Source: Winogradskyella sp.
GTDB taxonomy: Bacteria; Bacteroidota; Bacteroidia; Flavobacteriales; Flavobacteriaceae
Reading direction: 5' to 3'
DNA length: 55,671 nucleotides
Assembly: GCA_030149175.1 (NCBI GenBank)
Contig: JASBSA010000077.1
Coordinates: 1 to 55,671 of the forward strand
The notes beneath the pieces are model-generated. The model worked only from the letters and a program-made list of their open reading frames with translations, ran no database searches and had not been told where the DNA came from. Within the stretch, counting starts at the first letter, position 1, and each line of letters begins with the position of its first letter. The position numbers and the translations under genes were made by a program. Positions 11,641-11,776 of the stretch are shown here, in pieces.

Positions 11641-11776
11641 TAAAAAGGAAACTAATGGCTTAATGCACCTTGGTGTGTACTCTTATAAAGAGCTCAATTT
11701 ACTACTTGAATACTAAATGCCTTTAGTATTCATTTAAGTAAAAGTATTATACGATGCACCATTAGTTTCCAAAAAA
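11641..11776 (-). ncRNA. candidate DRT3 non-coding RNA with ACACAC template tract
   Basis: On the minus strand the RNA would begin within seven bases after the second reverse transcriptase stop codon. GGAAACTAATGG (11759-11770 on the complement) pairs perfectly with CCATTAGTTTCC (11647-11658), and a T run follows, so the outer stem could also end transcription. Inside is a perfect 10-bp hairpin, GAATACTAAA/TTTAGTATTC with a four-base loop (11708-11731), then a short CTCTT/AAGAG hairpin. Directly after that comes ACACAC (11673-11678). As I recall, the DRT3 RNA templates poly(GT) synthesis by Drt3a from an ACACAC tract. The fit is inferred; the position of the RNA relative to the genes in characterised systems was not checked. 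Confidence 0.65.

Follow-up and report, generated by a model that had tools for sequence, protein, structure and literature searches.

In E. coli, the antiphage system DRT3 includes a non-coding RNA that lies downstream of drt3b and whose ACACAC tract is the template of DRT3a (PMC13174585). DRT3a copies this tract into poly(TG) (PMC13174585; PMC13314766; Deng et al., 2026, as cited there). DRT3b makes poly(CA) without a nucleic-acid template, primed from Y666, and the two strands anneal (PMC13174585; PMC13314766); within DRT3b, E22, R71 and R241 act as gates and Y666 as the primer (PMC13174585). RecBCD keeps the DRT3 product low, and inhibition of RecBCD triggers abortive infection (PMC13174585; PMC13314766). 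The products made in vitro include read-through into the neighbouring stem-loop (PMC13174585). The published covariance model of the DRT3 RNA started from a subgroup of EcoDRT3-like systems, and its legend names 41 systems (PMC13174585).

Here we analyse a DRT3 locus on a contig of Winogradskyella sp. (JASBSA010000077.1, assembly GCA_030149175.1); "the window" is this whole stretch of 55,671 nucleotides. DRT3 is recognised by Drt3a (UG3) and Drt3b (UG8) being encoded together, and PADLOC finds this pair in the window:

13767..15014, minus strand: Drt3a reverse transcriptase, 415 amino acids, by family an RNA-templated reverse transcriptase (PADLOC, PDB, YVDD)
11777..13774, minus strand: Drt3b reverse transcriptase, 665 amino acids (PADLOC, PDB, residue alignment)

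The two frames overlap by 8 nt, both are open, and the profiles match them over nearly their full length. The best scores of the window's Drt3a are to the three Drt3a profiles (PADLOC Drt3a profile, E = 5e-127), and it also matches PDB 9z6y_A, which is Drt3a (E = 1e-44). Drt3b matches the PADLOC Drt3b profile (E = 5.5e-216) as well as PDB 26cz (E = 4.7e-115) and 9z6y_H (E = 5.1e-90). The motif YVDD is present in both proteins (Y283-D286 in Drt3b; by translation in Drt3a). Together with the RNA discussed below, we consider it almost certain that the window holds a complete DRT3 antiphage system (drt3a, drt3b and a non-coding RNA with ACACAC as the presumed template), which would work as its E. 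coli counterpart does.

The residues on which the Drt3b reaction is expected to depend are conserved. By alignment, E23, R78, R248 and Y663 of the window's Drt3b correspond to E22, R71, R241 and Y666 of E. coli DRT3b. (EcoDRT3 corresponds to locus L112 in our set, whose Drt3b has the N-terminal residues of PDB 26cz; the residue letters were read in L112.) Across 105 aligned Drt3b sequences, namely the window's and those of 104 related loci, the R241 position holds R in 102 and a gap in 3, and at the E22 position 95 sequences have E, 3 have D and 6 have a gap; L004 has R there, but the contig end truncates its N-terminus. The R71 position holds R in 98, a gap in 5 and T in 2, the latter probably a one-residue misalignment. 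The priming tyrosine is Y in 103 of the 105. (The exceptions are L039 and L040, where the tyrosine is missing at its usual place near the end of drt3b; these may be frame changes or real variants.)

The RNA starts 6 nt behind the drt3b stop codon. The minus strand from 11776 to 11641 folds at −42.7 kcal/mol, as compared with a mean of −20.9 kcal/mol for 200 dinucleotide shuffles (z = −7.47), and none of the 200 is as stable. We read its parts as follows:

11647..11770, minus strand: DRT3 non-coding RNA, structured core (fold z −7.5; 41 pairs, five-sequence covariation)
11758..11770, minus strand: outer clamp, 5' strand, 13 pairs (fold, alignment)
11647..11659, minus strand: outer clamp, 3' strand (fold, alignment)
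11753..11757, minus strand: inner clamp, 5' strand, 5 pairs with 11665-11669 (fold, alignment)
11665..11669, minus strand: inner clamp, 3' strand (fold, alignment)
11744..11748, minus strand: AATAC, unpaired and the same in the window as in the five relatives aligned with it
11698..11742, minus strand: long hairpin with a 6-pair basal stem and an 11-pair upper stem (fold, alignment)
11679..11693, minus strand: short hairpin directly 5' of the template (fold, alignment; likeness to the E. coli stem-loop)
11673..11678, minus strand: ACACAC, presumed Drt3a template (mostly unpaired; conserved)
11642..11646, minus strand: T5 run behind the clamp, possible terminator tail (sequence; T-rich in the five aligned relatives too)

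This agrees closely with an earlier note on this DNA, which had described a perfect 12-bp outer stem, a perfect 10-bp inner hairpin, a smaller hairpin followed at once by ACACAC, and a closing T run. The outer stem has 12 perfect pairs plus one U-G (11770-11758 with 11659-11647), and the 5 pairs of the inner clamp, one of them U-G, continue it. The inner hairpin is indeed perfect, but it has 11 pairs rather than 10 (11732-11722 with 11717-11707). The smaller hairpin (11693-11679; 11693-11688 paired with 11684-11679) leads straight into ACACAC (11678-11673), and the T run is the T5 at 11646-11642. From 5' to 3', ACACAC thus comes right after the short hairpin and before the closing clamp. The earlier note had proposed to test whether it is single-stranded in the minus-strand fold; the unpaired probabilities along the tract are 1.0, 0.42, 0.54, 0.92, 0.91 and 0.96, so that it is mostly but not wholly single-stranded, with 11677 (0.42) and 11676 (0.54) the weakest. 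The idea that a placement behind the genes would be new fails, because the E. coli RNA also lies downstream of drt3b (PMC13174585). At gathering scores, no Rfam family matched the window. Between 11400 and 15500, a sigma-70 scan gave 16 promoter-like sites, fewer than the 23.3 in shuffles, with no signal above shuffles at the RNA, and a terminator scan, which allows loops of 3-8 nt only, gave 3 sites (1.2 in shuffles), none of them at the RNA.

How might the parts work together? The gene content, the predicted fold, the conservation and the position of the template come from the window, and the chemistry is carried over from E. coli. The RNA would come either from the 3' end of the operon transcript or from a promoter close by, and the outer clamp with T5 may end transcription. 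Drt3a would bind the RNA, start copying ACACAC at 11673, the 3' end of the tract, and proceed to the short hairpin, which it would meet as a boundary; by analogy with E. coli, we presume that this hairpin delimits the template. It would then slip back by AC/GT microhomology and repeat, yielding poly(TG). Drt3b (gates E23 and R248, primer Y663) would make protein-templated poly(CA), and the two strands would anneal to the double-stranded DNA that drives abortive infection.

The alternative that fares best accepts the DRT3 RNA and differs in its product, which would not be pure poly(TG) because copying can enter the flanking bases. The window's tract is ACACAC only and is followed by C, and the E. 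coli products made in vitro read through into the stem-loop (PMC13174585). On the other hand, the tract has the same six bases as that of E. coli L112, and Drt3b keeps its gates for CA, for which TG would be the fitting partner. We regard an impure product as very unlikely.

If this reading is right, both the fold and the tract should be kept in relatives, which the earlier note had set as its test. We matched 443 Drt3b relatives in a collection with one genome per species and kept the best 80 of the 443. The nearest DRT3 relatives of the window's genome are Flavobacteriaceae. Four DRT3 loci, from Tenacibaculum, Flagellimonas, Winogradskyella and Arenibacter (L013-L016), have Drt3b proteins that are 72-80% and upstream Drt3a proteins that are 69-80% identical to the window's, with the RNA at the same place. 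Their RNA fold is the same as the window's and TACACACCAAG is identical in all five sequences, whereas the stem sequences differ and there are small differences in loop length. In the alignment of these five sequences, 93.1% of the cells of the 41 pairs are paired, and this falls to 35-46% if the partner is slid by 1-3 columns. (This comparison favours the true over the slid structure, since the fold of the window itself supplied the pairing.) Both sides have changed in 13 of the 41 pairs, as compared with 5.2 in shuffles, and in 17 cells, as compared with 6.2; none of 500 shuffles reaches the values for pairing, both-sides changes or covariation, and the count of pair types is matched in 7 of the 500, although with five related sequences shared descent may inflate these values. 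L013-L017 all share ACACAC with the window without a change. The fold is kept with compensatory changes and the tract is unchanged. In blastn, four of the five relatives match the RNA, at 72-87%; none of the five matches the 502 nt upstream of drt3a or the 347 nt that follow the RNA.

We then have to consider whether the structure might be only an operon terminator or an mRNA-stabilising 3' hairpin that ACACAC adjoins by chance. Hairpins behind genes are common, T5 follows the outer stem, and a given hexamer is not rare in 400 nt: ACACAC occurs in 11 of 103 control stretches of 400 nt inside drt3b. Against this, ACACAC stays invariant in the close relatives while the stems change compensatorily, and it recurs at distant loci. 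Within 400 nt behind drt3b, it is present in 99 of the 104 related loci in which the drt3b stop can be placed. Among loci with at least 300 nt downstream, ACACAC is found in 98 of 103 and the control GTGTGT, in the same stretch, in 4 of 103. (We began with 111 loci and omitted L001-L003, which are the window itself, L012, which has drt3b as two frames, and L033, which is the same place as L004; of the 106 tested, L054 and L078 have no drt3b stop before the end of the locus.) The 104 loci are not independent: of 104 entries, with the window and L112 included and L032 and L099 left out, 84 are left after removal of close repeats. Five loci (L018, L029, L051, L099 and L111) contain another ACACAC farther downstream; chance can therefore explain the tract of any one locus, but not the total.

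The architecture around the tract also speaks against a mere terminator. We held the AC tract unpaired and asked for a stem that ends no more than 6 nt before its 5' side and for a pair that encloses it and closes no more than 25 nt beyond its 3' side, each with a probability above 0.5 (40-nt 3' flank, 20 shuffles per entry). A hairpin and a clamp were found around the tract in 84 of 105 entries, as compared with 22.8 expected from shuffles, and in 67 of 84 (18.0 expected) after removal of near-repeats. A first run, which used the longest AC tract per locus and a 3' flank of 60 nt, gave 62 of 106 (17.6% in shuffles); it took the wrong tract in L029, L111, L099 and probably L032. In the later run, the tracts of L029, L111 and L099 were corrected, L032 was dropped, and the 40-nt flank was chosen after the earlier result was seen; the rise comes mostly from the shorter flank, as the corrections add at most a few loci. 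With the 60-nt flank, the window and L013-L017 scored 1.0 on both probabilities and E. coli L112 scored 0.57 and 0.87. Given these observations, we think it extremely improbable that the structure is only a terminator or stabilising hairpin. The core of the earlier note, a DRT3 RNA with ACACAC as the putative template of Drt3a, is strongly supported at the level of sequence by the Drt3a and Drt3b assignments, the conserved catalytic, gate and primer residues, the compensatory changes and the survey of distant loci.

The five loci that lack ACACAC are L020, L024 and L042 (CACAC), L066 (GCACAC) and L032, where the tract is hard to assign. The tract of L066, from Prevotella pallens, is 186 nt behind drt3b, and L056, L062, L068 and L083 have CACACAC in a like context. 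The Drt3b gate and primer residues are present in the four loci with a shortened tract (L066, L020, L024 and L042). Natural short tracts, such as the GCACAC of L066, could put the template rule to the test. Of the 104 loci, 100 have an upstream Drt3a; in the other four, the sequence ahead of the drt3b stop is shorter than 2.4 kb and leaves no room for it. As for how widely the system is spread, a Drt3b profile matched 4 of 395 genomes of the order, the window's own included. In viral contigs, a single-protein query found no relative and an alignment query found 19 loci. Phage records gave 9 partial reverse transcriptase matches, none covering 80% of the query, and of 205 plasmid records with a match, 7 covered at least 80%, from which H1-H6 were taken.

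The scaffold appears less constant than the tract. We built a covariance model (R1) from the window and L013-L016; L017 was left out of the seed because its 3' end was judged to be misaligned. In a covariance search of relatives, which the earlier note had proposed, R1 matched outside the seed weakly and at the right place in L017 (E = 0.0095), L089 (E = 0.19) and L018 (E = 0.65), but with E up to 10 it found no match to E. coli L112 or to most of the 96 sources (these exclude L001-L003, the seed loci L013-L016, L033 and L103-L111). Weaker matches in L011, L020 and L027 are taken as partial or chance. Over 397 genomes of the family, the sole match besides the window was in G330 (23.1 bits); we take it as chance, as it lies inside a coding frame, in a stretch without ACACAC. 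The limited reach of R1 means either that the scaffold diverges quickly or that a model from five sequences is too narrow. An alignment of E. coli-type RNAs looked too irregular to serve as the basis of a model. AATAC is the most enriched 5-mer between the drt3b stop and the AC tract (31 of 84 entries, 8.9 in shuffles), and may be a second site of protein contact.

The first ACACAC begins less than 60 nt behind drt3b in 27 of the 104 loci (L005, L009, L043, L050-L052, L058, L059, L061, L067, L069-L073, L075, L076, L079-L081, L085-L087, L091, L096, L105 and L107), and it is possible that these form a compact class of DRT3 RNA. In the test of architecture described above, a hairpin and clamp were found in 20 of the 27 entries whose tract is less than 60 nt away, as compared with 3.1 expected. 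An alignment of 16 compact RNAs has a 6-pair clamp and a 5-pair hairpin with 85.7% of cells paired (25-43% if slid), and 40 cells changed on both sides (16.5 in shuffles, reached by 0 of 500). In the same alignment, the number of pairs with both-sides changes (8 versus 6.7; 135 of 500) and the number of pair types (292 of 500) were not above shuffles. This alignment is supportive but not independent, because the 16 of 27 were picked by eye and the structure was read off the alignment. The compact RNAs may approach the minimal template RNA that Drt3a needs, and they offer small constructs for structural and biochemical work. Overall, we lean slightly towards the view that DRT3 RNAs share no single conserved scaffold: what they would have in common across phyla is an AC tract flanked by a 5' hairpin and a clamp that closes over it, and hardly anything more that a model from one subfamily could detect, with the window's RNA as one of several subfamilies and the compact class maybe near a minimal template RNA.

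The earlier note had called this RNA the only structured non-coding stretch of the locus, which is not quite true. In sliding folds (40 shuffles each), 11358-11488 (z = −4.5 on the minus and −5.8 on the plus strand) and 15015-15145 (z = −3.4, minus strand) also fold. Positions 11400-11500 are a repeat with a hairpin, with copies on contigs C121 and C153 of the same genome. The C121 copy is near a relative of the 341-aa ORF (10092-11117), and a fragment that resembles part of this ORF lies directly behind the RNA (11548-11628, minus strand). On the other side, a fatty-acid-hydroxylase gene (15517-16335; compared region 15438-16318) adjoins the DRT3 site. In two genomes of the genus, other genes are found beside this gene in the place of DRT3: L128 (G760) has methylase-like and ATPase-like frames there, names that we read from the translations, and L127 (G163) has neither. 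Perhaps the site is an exchange site for defence genes. The fragment behind the RNA, and the fact that the assembly, 75% complete and in 160 contigs, has a single copy, could suggest that the DRT3 locus has decayed and its RNA has fallen out of use, but the open, nearly full-length reverse transcriptase frames, the intact key residues and the strong RNA fold make this most improbable.

How does the Winogradskyella locus compare with known systems? To our knowledge, neither DRT9 nor DRT10 has a second, protein-templated reverse transcriptase, and their enzymes belong to other families than the window's Drt3a. Like DRT3, both have a confined RNA template that a Class 2 UG reverse transcriptase copies repeatedly (PMC13174585). 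In the literature searched, no paper treats DRT3 together with Bacteroidota, and "Bacteroid" does not occur in the main text of PMC13174585; with the window, a clean DRT3 locus is added from a branch for which we found no description of the RNA. Compared with E. coli DRT3, the order drt3a-drt3b-RNA is the same, YVDD, the E22/R71/R241 gates and the C-terminal priming tyrosine are common to both, and in each RNA a stem-loop precedes ACACAC, which a closing stem encloses. (This holds for L112 folds of 170-220 nt; in folds of 240 and 300 nt, the clamp is rearranged.) The proteins have diverged (36% identity for Drt3b and 37% for Drt3a), and the window's RNA is shorter and does without the separate GC-rich hairpin that L112 has behind the clamp. 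As R1 misses L112 and most DRT3 RNAs, the kinship of the two scaffolds rests on place, template and the order of elements. The survey shows how far the template rule reaches, as the tract recurs at nearly all loci although one model misses most of the RNAs. The template is nearly fixed, as if to match the poly(CA) of Drt3b, and so it separates from a scaffold that varies. The window's locus adds a member to DRT3 in a known arrangement, and variable scaffolds around one nearly fixed tract are a modest extension.
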